From Bradyrhizobium sp. LTSP885 (GTDB taxonomy: Bacteria; Pseudomonadota; Alphaproteobacteria; Rhizobiales; Xanthobacteraceae): a DNA stretch of 64,000 bases. Each line of letters begins with the position of its first letter. The first letter of the stretch is position 1. Below are positions 36,262 to 41,927 of the stretch, piece by piece. Position numbers and translations under genes: made by a program. Location: the NCBI RefSeq assembly GCF_000938305.1, contig NZ_JYMT01000038.1:256136-320135 (forward strand), read 5' to 3'. The notes beneath the pieces are model-generated. The model saw nothing but the letters and a program-made list of their open reading frames with translations, was not told the origin of the DNA and did no database searches.

Positions 36262-36448
36262 CCGTCAGCTCACTCCGGTCGATTGGCGCGGCCTCATCGG
36301 CGCGGCCCGGCTGGCATCGGCACGTGGCACTTTCACAGCCCGCACGATTTTGCTCGCCAATGAAATCAGAACCGCATTTCCAGCGGCGGCGGCACCTGAC
36401 GAAAGTCAGGATCGATCATGACGAAAGTCATATTCGTTTGCGGCCGCC

Positions 36449-37570
36449 ATGGGCTTACGCCAGAGTGGGGCGCTCGCTTCGAGCTTATTTGGGCAACGAA
36501 TGATCGACCTGAGCGCGGATTTGATTCCGGCCGCAGAGGCAGATGTCATCGGTCTCGCCGTCATCGGCGCCGACAGAGCGATGGTGCGGAAAATCGGGCG
36601 CCTGGTCGAATGGCTGCCCGCGATCGGCGCCGATTGCTGCGAGTGTGTATTGCTGGTCGGAATGGAGGCCGAATTTAAAGCCCTCACTGATGGACAGCGG
36701 GACATGATCGCGCTCGCGGGCGTGCGCGGCGCATCGCCGGGGCTGACGCAACCGGTGACCGCCGTCGTGCTCTGGAATAGCGAGCGGTCGCACTACTTCG
36801 TCATCGCAATGCCCGATTTCGCGGCGCGTCAGGTCGAAACGCTGCTCGGAAGCGAACGCCGAGCCCGGCGCCTGATGGAGCAGCAGCTCGAGGCGGCGAG
36901 CGCCGAGGTGCGCTTTGCCTCGCTGGCGCGCACCCGGCTTCGCCTGGCGCGCGACCTGCACGATACGCTGGTTCATTCGATCGTGGCGCTGCTGACCCAG
37001 ATCCGGCTGATCCGGCACTATCTGTCGACCGATCCGACGCGTCTCGCGGACAGCCTTGCGACTGCGGAAGACGCGGCTGCGAGCGGCCTCGTGCGGGCGC
37101 GCGATGCCATTGCCCGCCTGCGTATGCCCGACGACCTCAAGATCGACCCGGACGTCGAAGGATTGCTGACCGACTTTACCGAACGCAGCGGCATTGACGT
37201 CTCGACCGAGATCGACGAGCGGGCGCGCGACGGGTTGCGCGATTGCGCACTGACGGTTCAACGCGTGCTCAGCGAGGCGCTGCGCAACGTTCAGACCCAC
37301 GCCAGGGCGCGGCGTGTCTGGTTTCGTGCCTTCGAGGCGCCGGCGGCGGTCGGCCGCAAACTCGTCGTCGAAATCCGCGATGATGGCTGCGGCTTCGATC
37401 CGGCCGTGCCTGCGCCCGGACATTTCGGATTGCTTGGAATGGCTGAATTTGCTGAACTTGTCGGCGGAGACTGTTCGGTCGAGAGCGCGCCGGGGCAGGG
37501 GACGCTGGTCCGGATCTCGCTACCGGTGGCGGTGCCGCCAGCGGCACCGTCGGGCGTGTTGGCCGATTGA
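36449..37570 (+). CDS. NarL-type sensor histidine kinase (HisKA_3)
   Basis: The protein is up to 373 residues, with a possible start at Met18 (36500). A cytoplasmic input region of about 140 residues without clear membrane segments is followed by a coiled coil, then the HisKA_3 motif RLRLARDLHDTLVHSIVALL with the phospho-His in RDLHDT. The ATPase portion has SEALRNVQTHARARRV and IRDDGCGFDP, then GLLGMAEFAELVGG. The stop overlaps the start region of the response regulator gene, so kinase and regulator form a pair. Confidence 0.9.
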   Translation: MGLRQSGALASSLFGQRMIDLSADLIPAAEADVIGLAVIGADRAMVRKIGRLVEWLPAIGADCCECVLLVGMEAEFKALTDGQRDMIALAGVRGASPGLTQPVTAVVLWNSERSHYFVIAMPDFAARQVETLLGSERRARRLMEQQLEAASAEVRFASLARTRLRLARDLHDTLVHSIVALLTQIRLIRHYLSTDPTRLADSLATAEDAAASGLVRARDAIARLRMPDDLKIDPDVEGLLTDFTERSGIDVSTEIDERARDGLRDCALTVQRVLSEALRNVQTHARARRVWFRAFEAPAAVGRKLVVEIRDDGCGFDPAVPAPGHFGLLGMAEFAELVGGDCSVESAPGQGTLVRISLPVAVPPAAPSGVLAD

Positions 37571-37608
37571 GCCCGCCGGCCGCCCGGGGACGACTGGTGT
37601 TCGAGAGG

Positions 37609-38277
37609 ATGATGGAGCCCGTGAGCAATATCGAGAAGGTGCGGGTGCTGATCGCCGAGGATCAGGCGCTGATCAGGGAAGGTATCGCCACACTCCTCGC
37701 TCAACAGAACGACGACTTCGAGATGCTCCCCGGTGCCGCCGATGGCGAGCAGGCGATCGAATTCGCACGGCGATACCGGCCGGACGTCATCCTGATGGAC
37801 CTGCAGATGCCGCGCGTCGACGGCATTGCCGCAACCCAGCGGATCCTGCGCGAGCTGCCGCGGACCCATGTCGTCGTGCTGACGACGTTCGAGACCAACG
37901 ATCTGATCTTCGAAGCCGTCAGCGCGGGCGCCAAGGCGTATCTCCTGAAGGACGCCAGGATCGACGAAATCGCGACGACAATCCGTGCGGTGATGAAGGG
38001 ACAGTCGGGACTTTCGCCCGGGGTGGCGGCGCGTATCCTCGACGAGTTCAAGCGGCTGCGCGGCCCGCGCGCATCGGCCAAGCTGCCGGTGCGCGACGGC
38101 TTGACGGCGCGGGAGAATGAAATTCTCACGCTGATCGTCGAGGGCAAGAGCAACACCGAGATCGGCGAGCGGCTGCATTTGGCTGAGGGGACCGTGAAGA
38201 ACTATGTCAGCGCGATCCTGGAGAAGTGTCAGGTCAAGAACCGCACGGAACTCGCAATAAAGGCAATCACTTACTGA
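37609..38277 (+). CDS. LuxR/NarL-family response regulator
   Basis: About 222 residues (the start may instead be the GTG at 37621). The receiver domain has acidic residues in LIAEDQALIRE, the phospho-acceptor Asp in VILMDLQMPRVDG, and Lys in AYLLKDARIDE. The C-terminal LuxR helix-turn-helix contains LTARENEILTLIVEGKSNTE and IGERLHLAEGTVKNYVSAIL. It pairs with the histidine kinase encoded directly upstream. Targets are unknown. Confidence 0.93.
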   Translation: MMEPVSNIEKVRVLIAEDQALIREGIATLLAQQNDDFEMLPGAADGEQAIEFARRYRPDVILMDLQMPRVDGIAATQRILRELPRTHVVVLTTFETNDLIFEAVSAGAKAYLLKDARIDEIATTIRAVMKGQSGLSPGVAARILDEFKRLRGPRASAKLPVRDGLTARENEILTLIVEGKSNTEIGERLHLAEGTVKNYVSAILEKCQVKNRTELAIKAITY

Positions 38278-38435
38278 AATAATCTGGTGAGCCCTGCACC
38301 GCGCCGGCACAACCTGCCGCTGATTGCTCGCCTTTTGTTGTGCCGCGCTGCCGAAATTCGCTATAAGATTGTTCCAGATTTGTTTTTTGGCACGCAACGG
38401 GTTTGCGTAGCTTCGGATATTAGCAGGGAACGACC

Positions 38436-38816
38436 ATGAAGGGCACCGAGCGCCAGGCCAAGGGCACGGATGGACTGGCAAATACCGTAGCTGCAAATAC
38501 CGTAGCTGCAGGTAACGGAGCGGATGGAGCGGTGCATGGCGCTGCGACAATCGATCAGGTCCGCGACCTCTTGTTCGGCGGCGCGCAACGGTCGATCGAA
38601 GGCAATCTGGCGGGCCTGCGTGAGGAGATGCTTGCGTCCCTCAAGCAGATGCAGGCGGACTTTGCCAACGAGCTCGCAGCCGTTCAGGCGAGGGTCTCGG
38701 ACCTCGAGCGCGACACCGAGCAGAAGCGGCTCGAGTCGCTGAAGGATATCGGTGCGGCCATCTCGCAGCTCGGCGCGGCCGTCAGCGGATTGGGATCCAG
38801 CCGCTCGGGCAAATAG
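38436..38816 (+). CDS. Coiled-coil protein of the GTPase cluster
   Basis: The 126-residue protein has a low-complexity N-terminus in which NTVAA occurs twice in tandem (a 15-bp direct repeat of AATACCGTAGCTGCA at about 38480-38510). The motif ATIDQVRDLLFGGAQRSIEG follows, then a long coiled coil (about residues 50-120; REEMLASLKQMQADFANELA, and VSDLERDTEQKRLESLK). The I-x-Q-x-R-x-L-L-F motif is repeated in the next protein's N-terminus. Its stop lies one base before the start of the OmpA-tailed gene, so the two are one transcript. No named family is recognised. Confidence 0.75.
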   Translation: MKGTERQAKGTDGLANTVAANTVAAGNGADGAVHGAATIDQVRDLLFGGAQRSIEGNLAGLREEMLASLKQMQADFANELAAVQARVSDLERDTEQKRLESLKDIGAAISQLGAAVSGLGSSRSGK

Positions 38817-38817
38817 C

Positions 38818-40569
38818 ATGGCAGCCGCTGCCGGCCAGAATCGCGAGATCGAGCAGCTCAGGACATTGCTGTTTCAGCCGGAGGCGGTGCGGCTGGAGTC
38901 GCTGGAAACCGACCTCGCGTCGCTTCAACAGTATGTCGGCAACGCCGATCGCCTGGAGACGGCAACCGCTGATATCCTGGTCGCGGCGTTGGAGCGGGCC
39001 GAGGTCAATCGTCCGCGCGAACTCGCCAACGCCATCGCGCCCACCGTGGTCTCCGCGATCAGGAGCGAGATCAGGAATTCGCGCGAGCTGATGGTCGAGG
39101 CGCTCTACCCGATCGTCGGCCGGCTGGTCAGCGCCGCGGTGGCGAATTCTTTCAGGGAAACGCTGGCGTCGCTCGAGCAGCGCATCAACGCGCTGACATC
39201 AGCCCAATTGTGGGTGGGGCGCATCAAGTCGCTGGTCACGGGCCGCCCGATCAGCGAGTTCGTGCTGACGGACAATCCGCCGCGGGTGAACCGGCTCCTG
39301 ATCATCGAGCGCGGCAACGGCCGGCTGGTGGCGGACTGGAAGCGCGACGAAACCCCCGATGAGCGCGCCGACCTGCTCAGCGCGATGGTCGCGGCGATCC
39401 TGGAATTTTCCGTTCAGGCGCTCGCCGGCGAAGGCAATCTGCAAACGCTCGATTTCGGCGGACGCGAGATCGCGCTCCGCGCCTCGCCCCGCTTCATCCT
39501 CGCGGCGCAATGCCTCGGCCCGCTGCGTCCCGCCGACAATGCCAGGATCAATTCGCTGTTCTTCGATGCGATCGAGAGCATCGACCGCGGCGCGACCTGC
39601 GATCGCGCGATGCTTGCAAATTTGGCGACGTCGATCGAAGCCGATGATGCTCCTCGCAAGGCAACGAGCCGGCGCGGCAAGGTCATCCTGTTCGGCCTGC
39701 TGACGCTCGCCGTGGCGGCGCTGGTCTGGTTCGCCTGGATCTCGGTGACGAGGGGCCTGCTGGAGCGGCGGACGCAAGCTGCGCTGGAGCAGTTCGCGGC
39801 GAAGCAGCCGCTGCTGGCTTCGTTTCCACTTCGGCTCGATTTCGATCACGGCAACCGAAGCGTGGCGGTCTCCGGCATCGAGCCGAGCCAGCTGGAGACC
39901 GCACCGCTGATCGATGCGCTTGGCTCAGCGGCGTCGCCGTACCGGATCGTCGACCGGATCGGCGTCGTGTCCGGACCCGAGCAGTTGGCTGCATCGCAAG
40001 CTTCGGTCGCAGCCGTGCAGCAGTCGCTCGCGCGCCTGCAGGCGAGCCTCGACCAGATGCGCGACGCGATGTCAGAGCAATCGAAGTCGGGCGACCGGCA
40101 ATATGCCGGGCTGAACGGGCAATATGACAAGCTCGGCGAACAGTACGCCAAACTGGGCGAGCAATATGCCGCGCTGCAGTCCGTCGTCGACGGTCCGGCC
40201 GCGCAGCTCGATCGTTTCATCGCCTCGACGGCGGTCTTCTTCACCAACAACTCCGACGAATTCCTCGACAACGATCAGGCCGAGCAGCAGATTCGTGAGC
40301 TTGCCGGATTGCTGGCGAAGAACGATCTCAGGGTTCGAATCGTCGGATATGCCGACCAGAGCGGCACCGAGGGCACCAACAGGACGCTCGGGCGCAAGCG
40401 GGCGGAGCAAGTGACGCGGAGATTGACGGCGCTCGGGGTCGAGCCGGCACGGCTGATCCTGGTGTCGCGCGCGGCGACACTGCCGATCACCGACAAGCTC
40501 GACACCACGATCGGCGGCAACCGCCGGGTGTCGTTCGAAAACGTCTATCGATCCGAAATGTCCCGCTGA
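38818..40569 (+). CDS. Inner-membrane protein with cytosolic GTPase-linked domain and OmpA tail
   Basis: 583 residues from ATG 38818. The layout by rough residue is: 11-60 coiled coil starting IEQLRTLLFQPEAVRLESLE; 61-135 amphipathic helices (ANAIAPTVVSAIRSEIRNSR, LMVEALYPIVGRLVSAAVAN); 140-255 an alpha/beta domain that could be longin/roadblock-like (VLTDNPPRVNRLLIIERGNG, LQTLDFGGREIALR); one transmembrane helix at about 288-310; a BON-like periplasmic part (about 320-385); a heptad stretch with YxxLxxQ repeats (428-454); and an OmpA C-terminal domain at about 465-575 (FTNNSDEFLDND, VRIVGYADQSGTEGTNRTLG, RRVSFE). The tail should bind peptidoglycan. The stop overlaps the GTPase start by one base. 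Similar proteins occur with Ras-like GTPases in other bacteria; the exact function is unknown. Confidence 0.82.
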   Translation: MAAAAGQNREIEQLRTLLFQPEAVRLESLETDLASLQQYVGNADRLETATADILVAALERAEVNRPRELANAIAPTVVSAIRSEIRNSRELMVEALYPIVGRLVSAAVANSFRETLASLEQRINALTSAQLWVGRIKSLVTGRPISEFVLTDNPPRVNRLLIIERGNGRLVADWKRDETPDERADLLSAMVAAILEFSVQALAGEGNLQTLDFGGREIALRASPRFILAAQCLGPLRPADNARINSLFFDAIESIDRGATCDRAMLANLATSIEADDAPRKATSRRGKVILFGLLTLAVAALVWFAWISVTRGLLERRTQAALEQFAAKQPLLASFPLRLDFDHGNRSVAVSGIEPSQLETAPLIDALGSAASPYRIVDRIGVVSGPEQLAASQASVAAVQQSLARLQASLDQMRDAMSEQSKSGDRQYAGLNGQYDKLGEQYAKLGEQYAALQSVVDGPAAQLDRFIASTAVFFTNNSDEFLDNDQAEQQIRELAGLLAKNDLRVRIVGYADQSGTEGTNRTLGRKRAEQVTRRLTALGVEPARLILVSRAATLPITDKLDTTIGGNRRVSFENVYRSEMSR

Positions 40570-41069
40570 TGCTTACCGCAAAGGTCATGCTGCTCGGCGA
40601 TATGGGGGTCGGCAAGACGTCGATCCTGTATCGCCTCGTCTACGACCGCTTCGAGGGACAGTACAAATCGACGCTCGGCGTCGAAATCCTGAGCCATGAC
40701 GTTGCACCCGCCGACGGCAGCGATCCGATGCGGCTTGTGCTGTGGGACACCGACGGCGATTTCGGCACCCAGATCTTCGACACCGTCTATGTCACCGGTG
40801 CGTCGGCCGCCATCATCGTATCAGACGTCACGCGGCCGCAGACGGTGACGCGCATGGTCGAGCTGGTCCACGGCTTCGAGGCCCGGTTCCCGGGCAGGCC
40901 GTACCGGGCGCTTCTCAACAAGATCGATCTTCCGCAAGCCGCGGGAAGTGCCGGCCAGATCGGCGAGCTCGCCAAGTCGAACGTCAGATCGGTGAGCGCA
41001 AAGACCGGCGTCGGCATCGCGGAAAGCTTTGCCGAACTCGCCCAAATCATCCGCCGTCGGCAGCTTTGA
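40569..41069 (+). CDS. Rab/Ras-like small GTPase
   Basis: The 166-residue single-domain GTPase has all five G motifs: G1 GDMGVGKTS (residues 10-18), G2 Thr35 (STLGVEI), G3 WDTDGD (59-64), G4 NKID (117-120) and G5 SAKT (143-146). The pattern follows eukaryotic Rab/Ras rather than Era/FtsY. The G3 motif is unusual: Rab has WDTAGQ, and the Gln that positions water is Asp here. No C-terminal prenylation Cys is present. It overlaps the OmpA-tailed gene by one base, so they are certainly co-translated and probably partners. Confidence 0.9.
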   Translation: MLTAKVMLLGDMGVGKTSILYRLVYDRFEGQYKSTLGVEILSHDVAPADGSDPMRLVLWDTDGDFGTQIFDTVYVTGASAAIIVSDVTRPQTVTRMVELVHGFEARFPGRPYRALLNKIDLPQAAGSAGQIGELAKSNVRSVSAKTGVGIAESFAELAQIIRRRQL

Positions 41070-41084
41070 ATCAGGATATCTCCC

Positions 41085-41140
41085 CGTCATTGCGAGCCAA
41101 CGGGTCGCGCGAATGCGCGCCCCGTTGGCTCGCAATGACG
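41085..41140. repeat. Palindromic repeat after the GTPase gene
   Basis: CGTCATTGCGAGCCAACGGG pairs with CCCGTTGGCTCGCAATGACG around a GC-rich centre with alternating GCGC. It lies 16 bases after the GTPase stop and would form a long hairpin there, a plausible end of the three-gene unit. Confidence 0.8.
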
Positions 41141-41182
41141 GATGGTGAGGGGCTCGCTCGATATGCACTGATATCGATTGGT

Positions 41183-41233: not shown

Positions 41234-41516
41234 TTCACCACGCGTGGGGCGCGCGATGAACAGTTCTCGCCAGTCGGATAGCGTGACCTGTCCGGCCTCG
41301 GTGCCGGAGTTCGAGGCCGCGCTGGCGAGTTCATGCAAGCATGCATTCCGAGACGCATCGTCGACTCGCGACCACGCGCTTGCGACCAAATTGCACCACG
41401 CCGCCGAACCTTCCGGAAGTGACGAAGGTCATCTTCCGCCCGCATTGCGCCCTGCCTATCGTCCGTTCCATCGCCGGACCAGGAGCAGGTACCGGGCGAG
41501 AACAGGAGCGAAGATC

Positions 41517-41927
41517 ATGAGCGTGTTTGGAAGCATCATGGGTGCAATCTTTGGCCACGGCTCGGCCCAGGCCAAGACGCCGCCGACGGCAACGACCACT
41601 GCGGGGACCGCTGGCGTGTCGCCGACTGCCTCCACACCTGCCGCAGCGCCCGGCGCGGCTCCGGCGCAAGCCGTCGATGTCGCAGCGATCGTCGACAAGG
41701 CCGCTGCTGCCACGGGCGAACGGCTCGACTGGCGGACCTCGATCGTCGACCTGATGAAGGCGCTCGGGCTCGACAGCAGCCTTGCGGCGCGTAAGCAGCT
41801 TGCGCAGGAGCTGAACTACACCGGCGATACCAGCAACTCGGCCGCCATGAATGTCTGGCTGCATCAGCAGGTCATGGCCAAGCTCGCCGCCAACGGCGGA
41901 AAGCTGCCGAGCGATATCAAGGTCTAG
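41517..41927 (+). CDS. DUF3597-family protein
   Basis: The 136-residue protein begins MSVFGSIMGAIFGHGSAQAK, then a Pro/Thr/Ala-rich linker (about residues 20-52), then a DUF3597 domain: VDVAAIVDKAAAATGERLDW, SIVDLMKALGLDSSLAARKQ, LAQELNYTGDTSNSAAMNVW. The start at 41517 gives the conserved family N-terminus. The domain is often annotated as LysM-associated or of unknown function; no enzymatic motif is seen. Confidence 0.85.
   Translation: MSVFGSIMGAIFGHGSAQAKTPPTATTTAGTAGVSPTASTPAAAPGAAPAQAVDVAAIVDKAAAATGERLDWRTSIVDLMKALGLDSSLAARKQLAQELNYTGDTSNSAAMNVWLHQQVMAKLAANGGKLPSDIKV

Follow-up and report, generated by a model that had tools for sequence, protein, structure and literature searches.

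The 64,000-nucleotide stretch of Bradyrhizobium sp. LTSP885 DNA analyzed here (the window) carries a compact block of three genes, whose products are a coiled-coil protein, a membrane protein that has an OmpA-type domain near its end (the middle protein), and a Rab-like GTPase. All coordinates are positions within the window; loci are labeled L0xx and genomes G0xx, the window's own genome being G000. A preliminary description of this DNA had singled out the block (38436-41069), and its observation is confirmed: one base separates the TAG stop codon of the coiled-coil gene (38814-38816) from the ATG of the middle gene (38818), and the TGA of the middle gene (40567-40569) overlaps the ATG of the GTPase gene (40569) by one base, giving TGATG. 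The proteins are also of the kinds it named, with Pfam matches for the OmpA domain of the one-helix membrane protein (PF00691) and for the Ras/Rab-like GTPase (PF00071), and with the coiled coil judged from sequence. However, as a unit the three genes are incomplete. Genes for a histidine kinase and a LuxR-type response regulator, which had been missed, lie directly 5' of the block, so that the order is kinase, regulator, coiled-coil protein, middle protein, GTPase (Table 1). With the more distant loci L038, L044, L049, and L100, the window shares DNA similarity over parts of 36375-38267 and of 38514-41067, and the similarity ends outside them; because it ends outside 36375-41067, we take the unit to comprise five genes. 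Similarity to three Bradyrhizobium loci (L035-L037) extends further, is patchy, and includes the gene after the GTPase. A promoter scan found no promoter.

Table 1. Features of the unit and its downstream flank, by position in the window
Feature	Position	Strand	Basis or remark
Tandem palindrome TGACGAAAGTCA-N10-TGACGAAAGTCA, copies at 36397 and 36419	36397..36430	+	Likely operator of the response regulator
Soluble histidine kinase, HisKA_3 (PF07730) and HATPase_c (PF02518), conserved N-terminal domain	36449..37570	+	Start may be 36500
NarL/FixJ (LuxR)-type response regulator	37567..38277	+	PF00072, PF00196
Coiled-coil protein, N-terminal motif TIDQVRDLLFG	38436..38816	+	Coiled coil judged from sequence
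Middle protein: N-terminal helices, longin-like domain, one membrane helix, periplasmic linker, OmpA domain	38818..40569	+	
Longin/roadblock-like domain, residues 153-278	39274..39651	+	Predicted structure
Single membrane helix, residues 289-309	39682..39744	+	Hydrophobicity
OmpA-type domain, residues 475-560	40240..40497	+	PF00691, E = 8e-14
Ras/Rab-like GTPase, G3 motif WDTDGDFG, no catalytic Gln	40569..41069	+	Pfam, tree, motif readout
Single operator-like site TGACGAAGGTCA, upstream of the DUF3597 gene	41420..41431	+	
DUF3597 protein, possible further regulator target	41517..41927	+	PF12200, E = 3e-52

The GTPase is a single-domain member of the Ras superfamily: PF00071 (Ras) covers residues 5-162 of its 166 (E = 2.6e-20, 73 bits), and its nearest solved sequences are Ypt7/Rab7. 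In a midpoint-rooted tree of 34 GTPase rows, all from loci of this analysis, the window GTPase and 23 other rows were split from the remaining ten by a branch with 100/100 support. The G3 motif reads DTDGD in 22 of the 24 rows of the window branch (L095 has DTDGN, and L035 gave no readout) and DLAGE, DIHGE, DVHGE, DLEGI, DIAGK, or DMAGR in the ten rows of the other branch. The catalytic glutamine of G3 is absent from all 33 readable rows; in the window, an Asp stands in its place. A plasmid search with the GTPase returned a single match, on a Nostoc plasmid (33% identity, E = 3e-14). The window's own genome holds a second Ras-family match (C27:107274-107759), which lies within an open frame of 1,155 amino acids.

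The preliminary description knew of no named system for this arrangement, but one had been described. Wuichet and Sogaard-Andersen (2014; PMC4316618), in the parts of that paper drawn on here, set out the neighborhood of the Group 1 "Rup" GTPases: a GTPase without the G3 glutamine, a coiled-coil protein, an output protein, and a third partner with an unknown domain, often followed by a transmembrane helix and OmpA. Usual outputs are c-di-GMP enzymes and histidine kinases, and the N-terminal region of the output has an invariant Gln. The same parts of the paper predict no MglB and report no catalytic glutamine for the Group 1 GTPases, and they state that no Rup member has been characterized and that one is known to be transcribed. 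They count alphaproteobacteria among the Rup taxa overall; for Group 1 the taxa given are Bacteroidetes, Chloroflexi, Cyanobacteria, and gammaproteobacteria, and a legend also shows a member from Sorangium. The window unit shares with these systems a Ras-like GTPase lacking the G3 Gln, a coiled-coil protein, a protein of the form domain-transmembrane helix-OmpA, and a signaling output gene. It differs in being alphaproteobacterial, in its WDTDGDFG motif, in having as output a soluble HisKA_3 kinase with a LuxR-type regulator, and in its conserved tandem palindrome; in addition, the domain given as unknown there is predicted to be a longin domain here. Judged by architecture and motif, and not by the published 71-protein tree, the window unit is of the Group 1 Rup kind, and its sequences mark it as a distinct, divergent branch of that GTPase system, mostly from its own order. 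In the open full-text literature the Rup names occurred in PMC4316618 only, a search that left subscription papers and preprints largely outside.

What might the unknown domain be? We modeled residues 1-278 of the window middle protein with AlphaFold2, using 19 sequences. Block means of the predicted local confidence (pLDDT) from residue 151 onward were 71, 82, 74, 59, 70, 68, 74, 86, 73, 85, 85, 86, and 72, and the elements of the alpha/beta part follow the order beta-beta-alpha-beta-beta-beta-alpha-alpha. Foldseek returned 12 rows at E ≤0.001, covering the VAMP7 longin domain, zeta-COP, MglB, MglC, an adaptor subunit, COPI, and an unnamed doublet-microtubule chain. The top VIA-align match was a Lokiarchaeal longin domain (8yqg_B; Z 12.6, 2.7 A over 120 residues), followed by Ykt6 (11.7), GATOR1-complex chains, Lst4, TRAPP subunits, and adaptors; the matched ranges of the 50 listed fall inside residues 131-278. 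Among the matches listed by the two programs (50 rows each), nearly all titles name longin-, roadblock-, or adaptin-type proteins or complexes. Residues 153-278 are predicted, from this model, to form a longin/roadblock-type fold, in agreement with the earlier proposal of such a domain at about residues 140-255. In the periplasmic linker of the same protein we noted four heptads of the form QYxxLxx (40096-40179, residues 427-454); relatives vary in length at this place, and the run is missing from L007, which would fit a wall spacer of differing length among middle proteins.

Zhang et al. (2012; PMC3521125), in the part relied on here, argue for a specific relationship between longin domains and the MglB roadblock domain and for a similar mode of GTPase binding; this relationship makes a GTPase-partner role for the modeled domain plausible. 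The domain is likely a docking or regulatory partner of the Rab-like GTPase. The MglA/MglB polarity module of Myxococcus and Thermus likewise couples a small GTPase to a partner with a roadblock/longin fold, and MglB is among the Foldseek matches; in the window, however, this domain is one part of a protein that also has a membrane helix and an OmpA domain, and the solved sequences nearest to the GTPase are Rab7/Ypt7. A Pfam search, by sequence only, found no roadblock family match in the five genes (36449-41069). Eukaryotic pairs of Rab and longin proteins (Mon1-Ccz1/Ypt7, TRAPP, GATOR, and Ragulator) also set a longin fold beside a Rab/Ras-type GTPase, whereas the window system is bacterial, with its putative longin domain joined to an OmpA domain and with a two-component system. 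The actinobacterial conservon (CvnA-D), an analogy drawn in PMC4316618, combines a histidine kinase, a roadblock-fold protein, and a small GTPase in one operon. It differs in having no OmpA protein, as far as it is described in the parts of that paper used here, and no response regulator, which the window unit has. No open full-text paper contained "longin," "OmpA," and "small GTPase" together as whole words.

A middle-protein search of 149 genomes of the same family gave some match in 110. Full-length matches, among those listed, came from four genomes including its own (100, 74, 53, and 35% identity, the last with one in-frame stop); a fifth genome of the family, G049, matched in the N-terminal part, and the other listed matches were C-terminal and OmpA bearing. 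Of 398 phylum genomes searched with a profile of the cytosolic domain, 50 had matches at E values up to 1e-5. In a scan of named genomes we observed 19 loci, in Bradyrhizobium, Mesorhizobium, Chelativorans, Hyphomicrobium, and metagenome-assembled genomes. The coiled-coil, middle, and GTPase genes occur together at all 19 (one GTPase is cut by a contig end and one is partly unread), and both kinase and regulator are present at 18. With 18 further loci chosen from the family and phylum searches, the comparison comprised 37 rows, which represent 36 loci because L043 and L100 are one contig; L008 falls within L052 over the compared stretch. In 35 of the 37 rows the GTPase gene is the same-strand neighbor of the middle gene, the others being L088, where the contig ends, and L091, where the GTPase is absent. 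Upstream, the coiled-coil gene was recognized in 36 of 37 rows by a motif profile (weakly in L092 and L094), itself built from 25 pattern-picked sequences of which many are among the 37 rows, and in L090 by pattern. The three-gene neighborhood reported at the outset is hence conserved beyond the window.

Proteins that bind no GTPase can also have a longin fold. Perhaps, then, the middle protein serves as a structural anchor to the wall, its longin-like domain does no more than dimerize or scaffold, and the GTPase has an unlinked partner? The missing catalytic Gln of the GTPase would suit such an arrangement. However, the adjacency of the middle and GTPase genes across nearly all rows speaks against it, and we regard it as quite improbable.

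The tandem palindrome 5' of the kinase gene was compared across the window and L035-L050 (n = 17; counts over these kinase and operator rows are not independent, because many rows are closely related to one another). The kinase-proximal copy is exact in all 17. The distal copy is exact in four (the window and L035-L037, counting either A or G as exact at one position), carries a single change in 11, and carries two changes in two; the copies are spaced by 22 bases in 11 rows and by 21 in six. Because the rows do not share one reading frame over the palindrome, it is not kept as protein. We scanned six genomes for the tandem pattern with up to three mismatches, using the reversed sequence as a control. 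The pattern occurred once in the window's own genome, once in G095, and twice in G202; it was absent from G024 and G138, same-genus genomes without the system, and the control gave none in any of the six. These data suggest that the tandem palindrome is probably the operator of the LuxR-type regulator.

In 11 loci the coiled-coil gene lies 1.4 to 2.6 kb from the regulator gene, and all 11 have an exact second pair 273 to 333 bases before the coiled-coil gene; no second pair was found there in the five contiguous loci or in the window. In each of the 11 split loci (12 rows if the duplicate L100 is counted), a divergent YidB-like frame starts 73 to 89 bases beyond this pair; the YidB family, PF20159, was confirmed for L100 alone. 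Since that frame starts on its other side, the second pair may act on YidB, on the GTPase unit, or on both. The single site upstream of the DUF3597 gene lies 85 to 94 bases before it in the window and in L035-L037 (the family was tested for the window protein only); it is exact in the window and L035 and has changed central bases in L036 and L037. By eye, the N termini of the window DUF3597 protein and of the divergent YidB-like proteins (L038-L043, L045-L048, and L050) are alike, with the genes about 85 bases from their sites, and these small proteins may be counterparts. The genome of the window contains ten exact single sites, three of them in the window, against one in the reversed control. 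Among the seven outside the window, L106 and L107 lie inside long open frames, L111 is ≤20 bases from a frame start, and L102-L105 are on the reverse strand; we claim none of the seven as a further target. We infer that the LuxR-type regulator would bind the palindromes and control its own operon together with the small YidB or DUF3597 gene.

The N-terminal domain of the kinase may be weakly PAS-like, judged by its model (mean pLDDT, 63; best VIA-align Z, 5.3; Foldseek gave no row at E ≤0.001). Its last helix has, near the start, a Gln that all 17 close kinases keep; none was seen at that place in L084. Among the ten loci of the other GTPase branch, eight full-length outputs comprise five class III nucleotidyl cyclases, two GGDEF-EAL proteins, and one hybrid histidine kinase; a ninth, cut by a contig end, had no family match. 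All eight have a QQxA- or QVAR-like Gln at residues 111-124, found with a pattern of our own that is a guess at the published residue. We noted that L085, L087, L097, L098, and L101 are Group 1 Rup-like loci with a class III adenylate/guanylate cyclase as output, a type absent from the output types named in the parts of PMC4316618 used here.

Might the GTPase-longin-OmpA unit be the output of the two-component system, positioning an envelope or polarity machine as MglA/MglB do in Myxococcus, with no feedback to the kinase? The unit does sit downstream of the putative two-component operator, Mesorhizobium-type loci have it as a separate block with an operator pair about 300 bases before it, and MglB is one of the best fold matches of the middle domain. 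Yet in the other branch, each of the eight full-length genes scanned next to the GTPase itself encodes a signaling enzyme, which points to a single path shared by GTPase and output protein. The kinase, the regulator, and the GTPase unit also stay together across genera. We consider it unlikely that the unit is such an output.

The best explanation, to which we give a probability of roughly two in three, is a branch of the Group 1 Rup systems in which a wall-anchored longin-GTPase module gates a two-component system. For this mechanism the analysis establishes the genes, their domains, their conserved neighborhood, and conserved operator-like sites, whereas the longin fold is a prediction. The middle protein would span the inner membrane, with its OmpA domain probably holding peptidoglycan and its cytosolic longin domain contacting the Rab-like GTPase, for which the coiled-coil protein would be a scaffold. 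GTP loading or hydrolysis would depend on the state of the envelope, and the soluble histidine kinase would in turn be gated by the GTPase module. The kinase would phosphorylate the LuxR-type regulator, which would act at the tandem palindrome 5' of its own operon and probably also at the small YidB/DUF3597 genes. The preliminary interpretation, in which a longin/roadblock-type GTPase partner tied a nucleotide switch through the inner membrane to peptidoglycan, is partly supported: the predicted fold and the conserved neighborhood both run against conditions set for its refutation. The weakest step of the gating mechanism is the direction of the signal, that is, the GTPase unit as an input to the kinase, which we infer.

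Several observations weigh against the gating mechanism or its parts. The kinase is tied to the GTPase by gene proximity alone. The N-terminal domain of the window kinase and the classic Group 1 output domains gave an hhalign probability of 1.6%, and the published invariant output Gln could not be placed in that domain, so that the data weigh neither for nor against the published trans-glutamine idea. For the middle protein, mean pLDDT over residues 1-278 is 60, and sequence profiles of the middle domain matched no PDB sequence at E values up to 10 and no Pfam family at E values up to 5; because no sequence profile supports longin, the assignment rests on one structure prediction. Not every locus has the full set: no kinase or regulator was seen at L053, only the kinase core resembles the window kinase at L051 and L052, kinase and regulator are on the other strand at L052, and L091 has middle and coiled-coil genes with a short lysine-rich open reading frame in place of a GTPase gene. 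As to the operator, the tandem pair 5' of the kinase is exact in four rows only, a fixed-spacing search placed a pair before the kinase in only 10 of 16 loci, and no exact TGACGAARGTCA was found in the more distant loci L051-L053, L084, and L086. G043 has one tandem match, with three mismatches, about 5 kb from the middle gene and on the other strand. Finally, the second pair is nearer to the divergent YidB gene than to the coiled-coil gene.

A wider claim would be that a Rab-like GTPase paired with a wall-anchored longin domain reads the envelope and gates the two-component system, and that the longin domain is the missing regulator of all Group 1 Rup systems; this we advance tentatively, at somewhat below even odds. 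The general gene arrangement has been known since 2014, and the longin fold and likely control site are proposed here. The predicted longin domain offers a concrete candidate regulator for a Group 1 Rup GTPase and would link bacterial Rab-like GTPases to a fold that regulates Rabs in eukaryotes. The suggested route would start at peptidoglycan, cross the inner membrane, and end in gene control, and the conserved palindrome would provide a simple reporter, making the system testable in Bradyrhizobium and Mesorhizobium.

Downstream of the GTPase gene, a hairpin at 41084-41141 combines a 21-pair palindromic stem with an inner 5-pair stem. It had been described as strong and is indeed stable (-58 kcal/mol, with none of 200 shuffles equally so), but it is not peculiar to this locus. 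Its 32-base core has 11 exact copies in the 7.85-Mb genome, for which reason we reject it as a terminator of the system; the reversed control gave none, and a terminator scan called no terminator at this position. We therefore take the hairpin to be a dispersed palindromic repeat and judge it not to be part of the GTPase system.

The coiled-coil and middle proteins may share an N-terminal motif. A motif profile did not score above shuffles. When whole alignments of four rows each were compared, TIDQVRDLLF/EIEQLRTLLF outranked every other register, and 5 of 500 shuffles reached its level; we treat the shared motif as only a lead. Within the coiled-coil gene, a 15-base unit is present in 2.2 exact copies (38478-38510), in frame, and encodes an ANTVA repeat.

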